A stretch of 56,048 bases of DNA from a virus. The stretch is taken from IMG/VR virus record IMGVR_UViG_3300032286_000209, positions 1 through 56,048 of that record, one strand, 5' to 3'. Position numbers and translations under genes: made by a program. Each line of letters opens with the position of its first letter. The first letter of the stretch is position 1. The notes under the pieces were generated by a model. It saw only the letters and a program-made list of their open reading frames with translations. It was not told the DNA's origin and searched no databases. Below, in pieces: positions 12,818 through 35,802 of the stretch.

Positions 12818-12894
12818 TGGTTTGCCCTATTGGAATTGAACCAATGACCTACAGCTTAGAAGGCTGTTGCTCTATCCAACTGAGCTAAGGACAA
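12818..12894 (-). tRNA. tRNA-Arg (anticodon UCU), CCA encoded
   Basis: The complementary strand folds as a full cloverleaf: acceptor TTGTCCT pairs with AGGGCAA (one T-G pair), D arm GCTC...GAGC, anticodon arm ACAGC-CTTCTAA-GCTGT with anticodon TCT, and T arm ATTGG-TTCAATT-CCAAT. A discriminator A is followed by an encoded CCA. UCU reads AGA, which is very frequent in the rightward structural genes. Confidence 0.93.
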
Positions 12895-12901
12895 ATGTAA
12901 A

Positions 12902-12976
12902 TGGTTCCGGTTGACGGGCTTGAACCGCCGACCTACCGCTTACAAGGCGGTTGCTCTACCACTGAGCTAAACCGGA
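12902..12976 (-). tRNA. tRNA-Thr (anticodon UGU), CCA encoded
   Basis: The complementary strand gives a cloverleaf with acceptor TCCGGTT/AACCGGA (perfect), D arm GCTC...GAGC, anticodon arm ACCGC-CTTGTAA-GCGGT with anticodon TGT, and a T arm GGCGG-TTCAAGC-CCGTC containing one mismatch-like pair. A discriminator A and an encoded CCA follow. UGU reads ACA, also common in the structural genes. It lies 7 bases upstream of the Arg tRNA gene on the same strand, so both are probably on one transcript. Confidence 0.92.
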
Positions 12977-30857: not shown

Positions 30858-31295
30858 TCACCCCTCAAACTGGTATGAGGCCATCAATCGCTTACCTGCC
30901 TTGTTCCTACCCATATCCACTATAGCTCCATCCACTACAGCAAGAGCATGCTTTGTTATCACAACAACATACCGCCCTTTGGGGTGACGCTCAAGGAATG
31001 TCTCCAGTGTCATGCCCTGTGGACGGAATGGAACGCTGTGCTTCTGAGACAGCCGCCGCATTCTCTCACCGTAGTAGGTGACATCGAAAGCACCAGCCAT
31101 CTTGTACACCTTGTCCAGTGCATCCCAAGGTGTGCCTCTGCCCCGTGGCCTACCCTCTTGAGACATGAGACGCAGTGCCACAGGGTAGGGGTAAGCACCT
31201 ACATTGGCAATTGCTCTCACAGCGCAGTCATTCTTTTCGACAATGCCGAAGTCAGCGGGTATGTAACCACCATCTTTGGATACGATGTATTTCAT
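30858..31295 (-). CDS. Papain-like / C39-like protease-fold protein
   Basis: A 145-residue protein. KNDCAVRAIANVGAYPYPVA places a likely nucleophile Cys at residue 24, on the first helix. RYVVVITKHALAVVDGAIVD places a His at 116 and an Asp at 122 on adjacent beta strands, as in papain-like and C39-type peptidases. The spacing of about 90 residues between Cys and His suits that fold. The protein lacks the transporter domain of C39 exporters. It may be a protease, deamidase or transglutaminase-like enzyme, or an inactive relative. It is preceded by a copy of the TTCCTGAAAGGAAACA leader. Confidence 0.65.
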   Translation of the reverse strand: MKYIVSKDGGYIPADFGIVEKNDCAVRAIANVGAYPYPVALRLMSQEGRPRGRGTPWDALDKVYKMAGAFDVTYYGERMRRLSQKHSVPFRPQGMTLETFLERHPKGRYVVVITKHALAVVDGAIVDMGRNKAGKRLMASYQFEG

Positions 31296-31319
31296 ATGTT
31301 TCCTTTCAGGAATGAGAAG

Positions 31320-32441: not shown

Positions 32442-32711
32442 TTACATCCTTGTATATGTTAGCTCTTCAGCGGGTTGCAGGGACATCTTATCTTCCATGA
32501 TGTCAAAGAGCAAAGCTTTCGCTTTGTTCAAGGCCCAGCTTGCTCTCTCCACATCATCCCTCGCCATCAATTCCTGAGCATCTGACATCAGAGATGCTAC
32601 CACCATCCCACCACCGCTGAATCGGTAGGTCATGCTGCGCTTTACAGAGGCTTTGAATTCTTCAATGTCGCAGCCATATACTATTCTTGATTTTAAAAGC
32701 TCTTTTTTCAT
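32442..32711 (-). CDS. Small helical hypothetical protein
   Basis: An 89-residue protein starting MKKELLKSRIVYGCDIEEFK. It contains MTYRFSGGGMVVASLMSDAQ and then RDDVERASWALNKAKALLF, resembling phage early proteins with 'rl.GGGMVvaSlMSDAQExia.gd.e.Ar..lNrAKwvlf'. It begins behind a recurrent leader copy. The function is unknown. Confidence 0.68.
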   Translation of the reverse strand: MKKELLKSRIVYGCDIEEFKASVKRSMTYRFSGGGMVVASLMSDAQELMARDDVERASWALNKAKALLFDIMEDKMSLQPAEELTYTRM

Positions 32712-32722
32712 GTTGTTTCCTT

Positions 32723-32881
32723 TCAGGAAGTGGTGTGTTGTTCTTCAGACTGCGCCCCAATTGCGTCCAGTACAGAGATTGCGTCTTCAATGGCAGCAAT
32801 GCCATCCTCTTTATTACCTACGGTAAGATCGTAGAGAGCAGCGTGGAGCAATTCCCACACAAGGCTTTCTGAAACTGTCAT
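32723..32881 (-). CDS. Small acidic hypothetical protein
   Basis: A 52-residue protein (MTVSESLVWELLHAALYDLT), started at ATG 32881 directly behind the leader TAAAGGAAACAAC. It appears to be a single helix pair with an acidic end (EDAISVLDAIGAQSEEQ). A 33-base longer ORF is not preferred because it reads through the leader. Confidence 0.6.
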   Translation of the reverse strand: MTVSESLVWELLHAALYDLTVGNKEDGIAAIEDAISVLDAIGAQSEEQHTTS

Positions 32882-32953: not shown

Positions 32954-33352
32954 TTACAGAGACAGAGAGTAAATGTAGCCCACCTTGATGCCATTGGCAT
33001 TCGGAGCAACCAGCATCGTAGCACTACGGCTCTTCAGCATGGGCAACTCTGTTGCTGAGCTTACAAAGGTGCTGTACTTGTAGGGGTTGTATGTAACCCT
33101 AGTACCCATCGTCACATACCGCTCTATGACAGCCGGTGCAGTGTCCCCTAGCCATGTGCCACAGACACCAGCATGGACATTCTTGCGCTGCTCTCGCAGC
33201 ACTCGCTGCCGCCCTGCCTCGCTCACTTTGTAGGTGCAATCGTATAGCTGCACCTCATGCTTGTGGGCTATCACTCGCCCTTTGTTCACACCCTCAAGGG
33301 CTTTGATAGAGAAGCACCGTAGGTGCAAATTGAAATAAACGAAAACTCGCAT
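32954..33352 (-). CDS. Conserved phage protein
   Basis: A 132-residue protein; ATG 33352 follows a full copy of the TTCCTGAAAGGAAACA leader. The first 70 residues, MRVFVYFNLHLRCFSIKALE and YKVSEAGRQRVLREQRKNVH, match a widespread phage early protein ('VFVYFNLHKKxFSVKALEGxxKGRVIAHxxxxxLxxxxFKVxxAGxQRVLREKRKNVHAGxxG'). The C-terminal half is beta-rich. It is of unknown function. Confidence 0.82.
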   Translation of the reverse strand: MRVFVYFNLHLRCFSIKALEGVNKGRVIAHKHEVQLYDCTYKVSEAGRQRVLREQRKNVHAGVCGTWLGDTAPAVIERYVTMGTRVTYNPYKYSTFVSSATELPMLKSRSATMLVAPNANGIKVGYIYSLSL

Positions 33353-33363
33353 GTTGTTTCCTT

Positions 33364-33654
33364 TCAGGAATAGTATTGTGCTGACCAATCATCCATAAAT
33401 GCATTCACAGTGTGATCAACCACCGTCTCTTCATCTTCAAGGCCAAAGGCCGACACTCTTACCCATGCCAATCGATAGGTATTCTCAGCGTCTCGAATGT
33501 GGAGATGAAGCTCTGCTTCCTCAACGCTTTCGATGGCCTCTATAATTTCATTATAACCAGCGGACTTAGTTACTGCCCATTCCTCACCGTCAAATACACT
33601 TACAGTGTAGCCCTTAGCTAGGGTATATTTCACTAGGTTTTTGTACGCTTTCAT
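33364..33654 (-). CDS. Conserved phage protein
   Basis: A 96-residue protein starting MKAYKNLVKYTLAKGYTVSV at ATG 33654, behind a TTCCTAAAGGAAACAAT leader. It continues FDGEEWAVTKSAGYNEIIEA and IESVEEAELHLHIRDAENTY. The family ('YKxLVKYALAxGxxVSVFDGEEWxVKxSxxYxeIieaIESVEEAxL.i.d') is common in phages and some bacteria. The role is unknown. Confidence 0.82.
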   Translation of the reverse strand: MKAYKNLVKYTLAKGYTVSVFDGEEWAVTKSAGYNEIIEAIESVEEAELHLHIRDAENTYRLAWVRVSAFGLEDEETVVDHTVNAFMDDWSAQYYS

Positions 33655-34019: not shown

Positions 34020-34772
34020 TCAAGCTGCTATTGCAATCGGTATGACCTTACGGTCAAAGACAAAGCCGCTGTAATCGTTTTTCGCTTTGCCTTTGGCATA
34101 AAGAGCCACCACCACACCCTTATCCTCTAAGTGACGAATGTCACTGTTATCACCGCCAATCACTGGCATGCCCCGATGATTGTCGGGGATCGCTGCTACA
34201 TCACGGAAAACTGTCGCAATTCTCATACCCAATGCCACCGCTTTTTCAACAAAGGGCTGAAAGCCCTGCACCCCGCTGTCACTGAATGTCAGATCGTAAT
34301 TTGACGGAATAACCTTACGGTTAACATCTTTGGTGTAGTCATAGAATTGAACATCGGGGAAAGCAGCAAATATATTTGCATACTCTGTGCCATCGGCATC
34401 AGTAAAACCTACGGTTTCCCACCGAATGTCGGAAGTGCCATTCAACCGGATCAGTGGCACTAAGCTTTGCTTACGGGCTTTCTTTACCAATTTGCAAATA
34501 TCAACAACTAGTTGTTGCATGAAAGTGTTTCGCTCTTCGAAAAACCACACTGTCTTATTGACTCTAGCCTGAGCCACTGAATTCATAGCACCCCGTCCAG
34601 CGGTGAATAGGCATCCATTACCGCACTGTGCAATGCCAGCCATCGAACAAGTATTCCACTTTGTGGAAGTGTGTGGTGCTAGATACAGAATGCCGGTTAA
34701 GAAACCGAAGGTTTCACCCTTAACTGTCTTAGCATCAGAGCCGACAGAAAGCAAAGCTTTAGACTTGAACAT
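34020..34772 (-). CDS. GP88/DUF7227-like phage protein
   Basis: A 250-residue protein: ALLSVGSDAKTVKGETFGFL, TGILYLAPHTSTKWNTC (with a Cys as in 'TGILYLaP....nlCp.aS..C...CLytAGRG'), CGNGCLFTAGRGAMNSVAQA, RVNKTVWFFEERNTFMQQLV, VPLIRLNGTSDIRWE and the later MPVIGGDNSDIR with conserved Asp. This is the gene product 88 family of phages. The Cys pattern (C42, C50, C54 region) may bind a cluster or metal; the activity is unknown. It begins behind a leader copy and is one of the first genes of the leftward arm. Confidence 0.85.
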   Translation of the reverse strand: MFKSKALLSVGSDAKTVKGETFGFLTGILYLAPHTSTKWNTCSMAGIAQCGNGCLFTAGRGAMNSVAQARVNKTVWFFEERNTFMQQLVVDICKLVKKARKQSLVPLIRLNGTSDIRWETVGFTDADGTEYANIFAAFPDVQFYDYTKDVNRKVIPSNYDLTFSDSGVQGFQPFVEKAVALGMRIATVFRDVAAIPDNHRGMPVIGGDNSDIRHLEDKGVVVALYAKGKAKNDYSGFVFDRKVIPIAIAA

Positions 34773-34845
34773 ACCGTGTTTCCTTTCAGGAAGTGTGTGG
34801 CAAAATCGCCGTGAGAAACGCTACTATAGCAGATCAATAATGCCC

Positions 34846-35028
34846 TTACCGATTGTAGGTGATTTTGCTTTCAGCCAATGCCACCAAAGGTGTCAGAGCC
34901 AATGCCACTGCACTCATCATCAATAGGCCAGCGCTTTGCTCTGAGCCGTAGAATAACATGCTTGCCACAAAGAACACGAAGGCTTTGAACACCATGTAAA
35001 TCGAAAAACTGTAGTCGGCTTTTCTCAT
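34846..35028 (-). CDS. Small two-span membrane protein, first gene of the leftward arm
   Basis: A 60-residue protein from ATG 35028 (MRKADYSFSIYMVFKAFVFF), with two hydrophobic segments (about 8-24 and 33-50) and a basic tail (AESKITYNR). A longer in-frame ORF to 35076 would run through the long inverted repeat at 35031-35116, so the shorter start is preferred. The ribosome site is weak (AAAGA). Its start codon abuts the base of that inverted repeat. Confidence 0.65.
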   Translation of the reverse strand: MRKADYSFSIYMVFKAFVFFVASMLFYGSEQSAGLLMMSAVALALTPLVALAESKITYNR

Positions 35029-35030
35029 TT

Positions 35031-35116
35031 TTTGTCTTTCATTTTTTATTAAGAAGAAAGTATTTCCCCTTTTCATACTTAAAAGGGGATACTTTCTTCA
35101 AAAAATGAAAGACAAA
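35031..35116. repeat. Long imperfect inverted repeat (large hairpin) at the start of the leftward arm
   Basis: Arms 35031-35073 and 35081-35116 pair as TTTGTCTTTCATTTTTT with its complement, then GAAGAAAGTAT and CCCCTTTT, giving about 36 pairs. Two small insertions interrupt the left arm (ATTAA at 35048-35052, TT at 35064-35065). The loop is 7 bases (CATACTT). It adjoins the start codon at 35028. Confidence 0.85.
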
Positions 35117-35140
35117 GATTCGCGGGTGATGCGCGCAGAT

Positions 35141-35210
35141 CTTCCTAACTTAATACAATTCTAGACGCCATCAGAGATGGCATAAGAATTGTCTCAATTA
35201 AGTTAGGAAG
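35141..35210. repeat. Nested perfect inverted repeat, 28 pairs
   Basis: Three stacked perfect stems are visible: CTTCCTAACTTAAT with ATTAAGTTAGGAAG (35141-35154 and 35197-35210), ACAATTCT with AGAATTGT (35155-35162 and 35185-35192), and GCCATC-AGA-GATGGC (35167-35181). Small loops of 4 and 3 or 4 bases lie between them. This is far beyond a chance hairpin. It may be an RNA, a cruciform binding site or part of the replication origin. Confidence 0.88.
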
Positions 35211-35229
35211 CCGCACACGAGGCTTTTTA
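35207..35229 (+). terminator. Possible Rho-independent terminator after the nested hairpin
   Basis: AAGCC-GCACACGA-GGCTT followed by a T5 tract reads as a short intrinsic terminator on the + strand, directly after the 35141-35210 hairpin. Together they could be the 3' end of a small RNA. The stem is only 5 pairs. Confidence 0.45.
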
Positions 35230-35283
35230 GTGGCTATCAATATCTGCACTTTTTGTTGGCGATCTTTTCTGTGGTGGATAAAC

Positions 35284-35292
35284 TGTGGATAA
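35284..35292 (-). promoter_or_regulatory. DnaA box
   Basis: TGTGGATAA, the complement of the strict DnaA box TTATCCACA. A second, imperfect copy (TGGTGGATAA) lies just before it at about 35272-35281. The repeats at 35314-35380 follow at once. One 9-mer can occur by chance, but its place in the non-coding divergent region supports it. Confidence 0.55.
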
Positions 35293-35313
35293 CTTCAAAG
35301 CACTGTCGATTTA

Positions 35314-35380
35314 TACAGCACTGGATAGCACTGGCTTTTTGTACAGCATCGGGGCTGGATAGACTGGGTTTTAGTACAGT
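35314..35380. repeat. Iteron-like direct repeats
   Basis: TACAGCA starts at 35314 and 35342, and TACAGTA at 35375. The first two units continue in parallel with CTGGATAG, CTGG and a T-run (TACAGCA-N-TGGATAG-N-CTGG-TTTT), giving units of 28 and 33 bases. They lie beside the DnaA box. Confidence 0.6.
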
Positions 35381-35389
35381 ATAGTCTGC

Positions 35390-35408
35390 CGGTATATTCT
35401 ATATACCG
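35390..35408. repeat. Perfect 8-bp inverted repeat
   Basis: CGGTATAT-TCT-ATATACCG, a perfect palindrome with a 3-base centre, in the control region after the iteron-like repeats. Its form suits a dimeric regulator's operator. Confidence 0.65.
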
Positions 35409-35463
35409 CCTCGCTGATGTCGGGGTAGTGCTTAAAAAAGAGGCAGTTTCCAACAATAGTTTG

Positions 35464-35537
35464 ATTCTGAGCTGATTCCGTATCAGAATGCAGTCTTATG
35501 TAACCCCTTGAATTCATTGAGTATTCAGTATTCAAGG
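35464..35537. repeat. Two adjacent inverted repeats with ATTCA-rich spacer
   Basis: ATTCTGA-N12-TCAGAAT (35464-35489) is followed by CCTTGAAT-N16-ATTCAAGG (35506-35537). The spacer and flanks carry five more ATTC or ATTCA words. AGGTGA-N21-TCACCT begins at about 35535. They continue the chain of hairpins of the control region. Confidence 0.6.
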
Positions 35538-35674
35538 TGAATTCTAATGCATTCAAAAGGATCACCTGACTTCATTGACTTCCAAAAGACAATTAATTCT
35601 GGAGATCTGCACCCCTAGGCGCAGCTATACGCAGCCCTGTGCAGCCCTGCGCGGCGGCGTGTGCGCGGCTAGGT

Positions 35675-35700
35675 GGGGGCGGGCGTGGGCCACCGGGGGG
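35675..35700 (+). other. Putative G-quadruplex motif inside a GC-rich island
   Basis: The + strand reads G5-C-G3-CGT-G3-CCACC-G6, which satisfies the canonical four-tract pattern with loops of 1, 3 and 5 bases. It sits in a GC-rich patch (about 35610-35710), unlike the rest of the AT-rich control region, near direct repeats of GCAGCCCTG. A second G6-TA-G6 motif is at 36064-36077. Confidence 0.6.
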
Positions 35701-35802
35701 TATGGCGCTATATGTGTATGGCCTAGCACACAGAAGGGGATTTTAAGATTAGCAACTATAGTTGTAGACCTACACAGCCATCCCATCCAAATCAGCTAAA
35801 AA

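Follow-up and report, generated by a model that had tools for sequence, protein, structure and literature searches.

How replication begins in phages whose replication genes are T7-like but in which no phage RNA polymerase is recognised is largely unknown, and the question is raised here by a virus contig of 56 kb (IMG/VR record IMGVR_UViG_3300032286_000209, analysed over its whole length of 56,048 nucleotides and called the window below) in which two long hairpins, together referred to as the element, stand side by side where the gene arms diverge. The leftward genes include those for a class II ribonucleotide reductase, pol A, a T7-like primase-helicase, a gp2.5-like SSB, endonuclease VII and an integrase, and the rightward genes are structural (terminase, portal, major head protein). 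The genes for replication (pol A, primase-helicase, gp2.5-like SSB and an exonuclease) are of T7-like kind. Our answer, tentative and rated at slightly worse than even chances, is that the twin hairpins form the structural core of an origin of the DnaA/iteron type, acting as folded DNA within the leftward operon's leader; we infer that this is the origin, that it folds as DNA and not as RNA, and what binds it. The cumulative GC skew, which in this genome also tracks gene direction, has its turning point at about 35 kb, where the element lies. Where the two gene arms converge, genes for tRNA-Arg(TCT) and tRNA-Thr(TGT) are found on the minus strand (12818-12976).

Architecture and folding of the element

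Hairpin 1 (35031..35116) has 36 pairs, consisting of a 17-bp basal stem (35031-35047/35100-35116), a 5-nt internal loop (35048-35052), a 10-bp middle stem (35053-35062/35090-35099), a 2-nt bulge (35063-35064) and a 9-bp apical stem (35065-35073/35081-35089) with a 7-nt loop (35074-35080). A linker (35117..35140), whose right end enters hairpin 2 as CAGATCTT, separates it from hairpin 2 (35141..35210), in which 28 pairs are arranged in runs of 14, 8 and 6: an outer stem of 14 bp (35141-35154/35197-35210), an asymmetric 4-nt bulge (35193-35196), an inner stem of 8 bp (35155-35162/35185-35192), an internal loop (35163-35166/35182-35184) and an apex (35167-35181) bearing a conserved GCCA...TGGCAT. 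No strand is assigned to the hairpins or the linker. An earlier, sequence-only reading of this DNA had placed both hairpins at these positions, the first as an imperfect repeat of about 36 pairs and the second as a perfect hairpin of 28; folding bears out both positions and both counts, and hairpin 2 is not perfect, having a bulge and an internal loop.

The same reading held such stems to be too long for chance, and this is confirmed, as none of 200 shuffled sequences folded equally well on either strand, whether as RNA (z of -11.2 for the plus and -12.9 for the minus strand) or as DNA (z of -12.7 and -13.5 for the two strands). The GC content is 31% over the whole element, 27% in hairpin 1 and 40% in the right flank. 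A covariance model gave a single hit for the hairpin pair over the 56 kb window, with no further copies elsewhere in it. In Rfam 15, whether the thresholds were curated or lax, no family reached its gathering cut-off, chance miRNA-like shapes scoring far below. Two further features were considered and rejected: the linker as an alternating purine-pyrimidine tract or third hairpin, which proved inconsistent, and a leader peptide at the hairpin 2 apex (MTTLLA..., seen by eye), which has no ribosome site and whose frame is broken in two clades.

Distribution among related phages

Loci of relatives were collected by means of the terminase, two DNA patterns and the GP88-family gene adjoining the element, which in the window is the second leftward gene (34020..34772, minus strand; PF17338, phrog_1617) and served as the anchor. 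A profile search found the element in 106 IMG/VR loci in addition to that of the window, a number that includes some overlapping fragments of single contigs, and the left flank is complete in 97 of these loci; hairpin order and bulges are identical in every locus carrying the element. When 22 records were searched in full, it was present once in 10 and absent in 12. On a GP88 tree of 70 rows the presence of the hairpins needs 3 changes, against a mean of 20.3 in 500 shuffles, none of which was as low, and this is consistent with hairpins that are old and mainly inherited, having probably been lost a few times. A blast search of a phage collection with the element as query gave no match, and MW202701, the sole relative found with structural genes, carries no element. 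A search of 84,980 bacterial and archaeal genomes with the hairpin pattern returned 35 matches, none of them supported by the profile, which were therefore taken as chance.

DnaA boxes and iterons on the right flank

Candidate DnaA boxes, recognised by sequence, occur in 38 of 44 distinct right flanks (two to five in each, counts that are not independent of phylogeny), and they are phased: the first commonly lies 5 nt beyond the element, the next at 41, 63, 88-91 and 109-112. In full-length records with the element, clusters of several boxes are found solely beside it, whereas 12 loci lacking the hairpins have no such cluster in the 1.5 kb tested and six records of 54-60 kb without the element contain no exact TTATCCACA box; a point against an origin is that L155 has DnaA boxes and no hairpins. 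The sequence-only reading had proposed three functions (a small RNA, a cruciform used by an initiator or the recombinase, and a barrier to transcription), among which the cruciform used by an initiator fits best, since the boxes are phased to hairpin 2 and missing where hairpin 2 is missing. The recombinase named with it found no backing, as nothing ties the element to the integrase, whose gene lies 7 kb away.

The window itself has only a degraded pair of boxes, which speaks against an origin: two DnaA-box-like 9-mers on the minus strand (35273..35292), one exact (TTATCCACA, 35284-35292) and one with a single mismatch (TTATCCACC, 35273-35281), the box adjoining hairpin 2 in relatives such as L084 being disrupted. 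These are followed on the plus strand by an iteron-like 28-bp direct repeat (35292..35347, ...GCACTG...TTTNTACAGC) with two adjoining copies and a degenerate third reaching to about 35380, and then by a dyad, CGGTATATTCTATATACCGC (35390..35409, no strand assigned), a GGTATATNYACC-like dyad being similarly placed in most relatives. Phased repeats of one kind or another are found in 28 of the 44 flanks, compared with 15 of 180 random windows and 9 of 220 shuffles, and in L006, L119 and L134 other repeats, some of them 21 bp apart, occupy the place of the missing DnaA boxes; a few hairpin-bearing flanks have neither boxes nor clear iterons, which also speaks against an origin. Across L109, L123, L006, L119 and L134 unrelated iteron arrays (21-bp DnaA-box repeats, AGATTTTATACTGGTCAGTCT, AAACCCTGTAACACTTTTG and AAATGTCCTGATCGGGACAAAA) replace one another beside the same hairpins.

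Further to the right, about 30 of the 44 distinct flanks share a conserved block in which TGAATTCATTGA and GTATTCA are repeated (35500-35580 in the window; in relatives, 225-275 nt from the element); it is possibly an operator or initiator site. A G-rich stretch on the same side, approximately GGGCGTGGGCCANNNGGGGG...GGCGCTAT (35676-35709 in the window; in relatives, about 380-425 nt from the element), is kept in many relatives with and without hairpins, including the hairpin-lacking L098 and L144.

The first leftward gene and a possible leader RNA

The hairpins had been placed at the head of the leftward arm, which can now be stated more sharply, because the foot of hairpin 1 abuts the first leftward start codon. 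This gene (34846..35028, minus strand) encodes 60 aa, by eye a membrane protein and with no PHROG, and in the window its ATG begins 3 nt beyond the hairpin. Of the 97 loci whose left flank is complete, nearly all have an ORF beginning 3-22 nt from the same foot, often with AAGGA immediately after the last pair, although these ORFs are drawn from about nine unrelated families; no plausible ORF is present at this place in L085, L096 and L106. In a sister group lacking the hairpins, the homologous gene has a different leader, in which a small hairpin holds the ribosome site.

Swapping of the first gene among these small families is seen, for example, in L137, L131, L094, L109 and L134, and nearly all of the swapped genes are without a PHROG match; the position is likely a cargo slot for early host-takeover genes. 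Many later leftward genes have a 13-nt hairpin of their own, TTCCT-GAA-AGGAA, which contains the ribosome site and directly precedes the ATG (in the window at 34772-34792, 33352-33370, 32711-32729 and 31295-31312, minus strand). Loci L084-L163 hold 247 such sites, compared with 2 on the opposite strand, and the stem covaries (TTCCT/AGGAA 204, TTACC/GGTAA 18, TTACT/AGTAA 17, TTTCC/GGAAA 5, mismatched 3); it could be a shared translational operator.

A start codon tethered in this way is not needed by an origin and would be explained by the main rival, in which the leftward early operon begins with a structured 5' leader RNA (minus strand, 5'-hairpin 2-linker-hairpin 1-SD-ATG). Such a leader would set expression of the first early gene, acting either as an RNase III site or as a 5' stabiliser, in the manner of R0.3 ahead of T7 gene 0.3 or of the lambda N leader hairpin. 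We regard this leader as a real contender of somewhat lower probability. The tether, kept across unrelated ORFs, is what favours it; the 13-nt hairpins of later genes make the coupling of hairpin and start site habitual in this operon, and it is usual for RNA to have asymmetric internal loops that are conserved. On the other side, a leader RNA leaves the phasing of the DnaA boxes unexplained, and a promoter scan right of hairpin 2 found no consistent promoter, a TGGACA/TTGATA-17-TATATT-like site having been rejected as a general one because it recurs at one position only with some stem alleles.

The element might otherwise be a cis-acting antiterminator RNA, its nascent twin stems binding RNA polymerase and carrying it past terminators along the long leftward operon, as the twin stems of HK022 put can act on RNA polymerase (PMC9378689). 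The general plan is shared with put, namely two bulged stem-loops heading an early operon with a short conserved stretch between the stems (PMC9378689), but put is about 70 nt long and found in both early operons while the element is about 180 nt and occurs once, and a fixed distance to a start codon would be unexpected; this reading is accordingly an improbable one.

Covariation and the near-absence of wobble pairs

Comparison of relatives for compensatory changes, a check proposed from the sequence alone, was strongly positive. Over 49 distinct sequences and 62 pairs, pairing is intact in 97.5% of cells and both sides have changed in 40 of the 62 pairs, giving 453 double-change cells and a covariation score of 0.415, against 0.132 +/- 0.006 when shuffled and at most 0.135 when slid; helices 1 and 2 of this analysis belong to hairpin 1 and helices 3-5 to hairpin 2. 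In L292 and L295 the sequence of hairpin 1 is unrelated and its plan of loops and bulges is the same. Sequence conservation is limited to the hairpin 2 apex and to the linker end CAGATCTT, where the invariant columns are C115, A116, G117, A118, C120, T121 and T122. In nearly every one of 26 haplotypes an outer-stem allele of hairpin 2 is accompanied by the arm that matches it, and alleles of the outer stem assort with those of the inner stem; a special process behind the independent assortment of nested stem alleles was considered and set aside, short conversion tracts explaining it well enough.

When each arm was aligned to its partner with equal wobble penalties, the stem cells comprised 3,251 Watson-Crick pairs, 1 G-T and 12 A-C, other mismatches being mostly conserved non-pairs at the hairpin 2 apex. 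T7 RNase III sites folded for comparison have G-U pairs at 3/23, 5/21 and 4/25 (12-24%), and the near-absence of such pairs on either strand thus argues against a leader RNA. It is also the main, though indirect, reason for favouring folding as DNA; rapid compensation or a need for perfect double-stranded RNA would look alike. A strand call from the wobble bias was abandoned, since the 1 G-T and 12 A-C cells are too few events of few origins, and mismatches and loops give conflicting strand signals. The element is a clear case for asking whether it is folding at the DNA or at the RNA level that is selected.

It is very improbable that the pairing is maintained by a mutational mechanism, template switching in the palindrome, and not by selection: intermediates are indeed nearly absent and both arms change in blocks (as in the hairpin 2 outer stem of L137 and L143), but loops and bulges, which such correction would erase, hold their position on unrelated sequences in L292 and L295, and the hairpins are retained over the GP88 tree. 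Least probable of all, and by our estimate scarcely credible, is a stand-alone small RNA transcribed rightward, which would comprise both stems and end at the terminator-like plus-strand stem AAGCC/GGCTTTTT that the earlier reading had pointed out: the stem does exist in the window (35208..35228, 5 pairs, 8-nt loop), but it is weak and, together with its T-run, absent from the close relatives L088, L089 and L137, which keep both hairpins, so that a small RNA with this terminator is unsupported, and its promoter would fall left of hairpin 1, in the swapped first leftward gene.

A putative origin within an operon leader

The reading as an origin is favoured by the phasing of the DnaA boxes, their joint absence with the hairpins, the skew turn and the lack of wobble. 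The origin would occupy the leftward (replication) operon's untranslated leader, with the DnaA-box/iteron array on its right and the first leftward gene on its left. An initiator (host DnaA, or a different one in genomes with other iterons) would assemble on the phased boxes adjoining hairpin 2 and melt the AT-rich hairpin stretch (hairpin 1 having the lowest GC content), and the exposed strand would fold into the two bulged hairpins, a platform recognised by shape onto which the T7-like helicase-primase may be loaded and the first primer made. Single-strand hairpins are able to load priming machinery in other systems, such as the ssi sites of RSF1010 (PMC4434180) and the A-site (PMC6127211). 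Among the window's proteins scanned, no initiator protein was recognised. The roles of origin and leader are not exclusive, because both ends of the element abut working elements. Compact, present in a single copy, covarying strongly and tied to DnaA boxes, the element offers a testable candidate origin for a widespread group of freshwater phages that are known mostly from metagenomes.

Comparison with known systems

In integron attC sites a folded strand carries conserved unpaired bases while the stems vary freely and stay complementary, a plan that the element resembles; unlike attC, it has no repeat arrays or cassettes, and the integrase gene is distant. At the RNase III sites R0.3 and R1.1 of T7, as in the leader of lambda N, a first early gene has a hairpin immediately ahead of its ribosome site, and the element is like them in standing just before the start of the first early gene; the T7 sites folded here are shorter, have several G-U pairs and are without DnaA boxes, unlike the element.

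The ssi sites of RSF1010 are positioned beside its iteron origin, and paired hairpins beside iterons are what the element shares with them. These sites, ssiA and ssiB, are two single-strand initiation hairpins recognised by the RepB' primase (PMC4434180), but each strand bears one such site, about 40 nt long and containing a hairpin of 21 nt, while the hairpins of the element measure 86 and 70 nt and stand side by side, and the window's primase is a T7-type primase-helicase, not RepB'-like. The A-site of the ABC-primosome links DnaA to a single-strand hairpin so that the helicase can be loaded (PMC6127211). Its DnaA box forms part of the hairpin stem, whereas here the boxes are outside, beginning a few nucleotides beyond the foot of hairpin 2. 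HK022 putL and putR are likewise twin bulged stems heading an early operon, but they are present twice per genome and are bound by RNA polymerase. We have therefore not filed the element under put or the A-site, since it lacks a defining feature of each, nor under ssi, membership of which is not established. It may, though this is doubtful, represent a new class of origin element, in which twin DNA hairpins are recognised by shape, their stems drift freely under strict Watson-Crick pairing, and the adjacent initiator arrays (DnaA boxes in some genomes, unrelated iterons in others) are swapped like cassettes.
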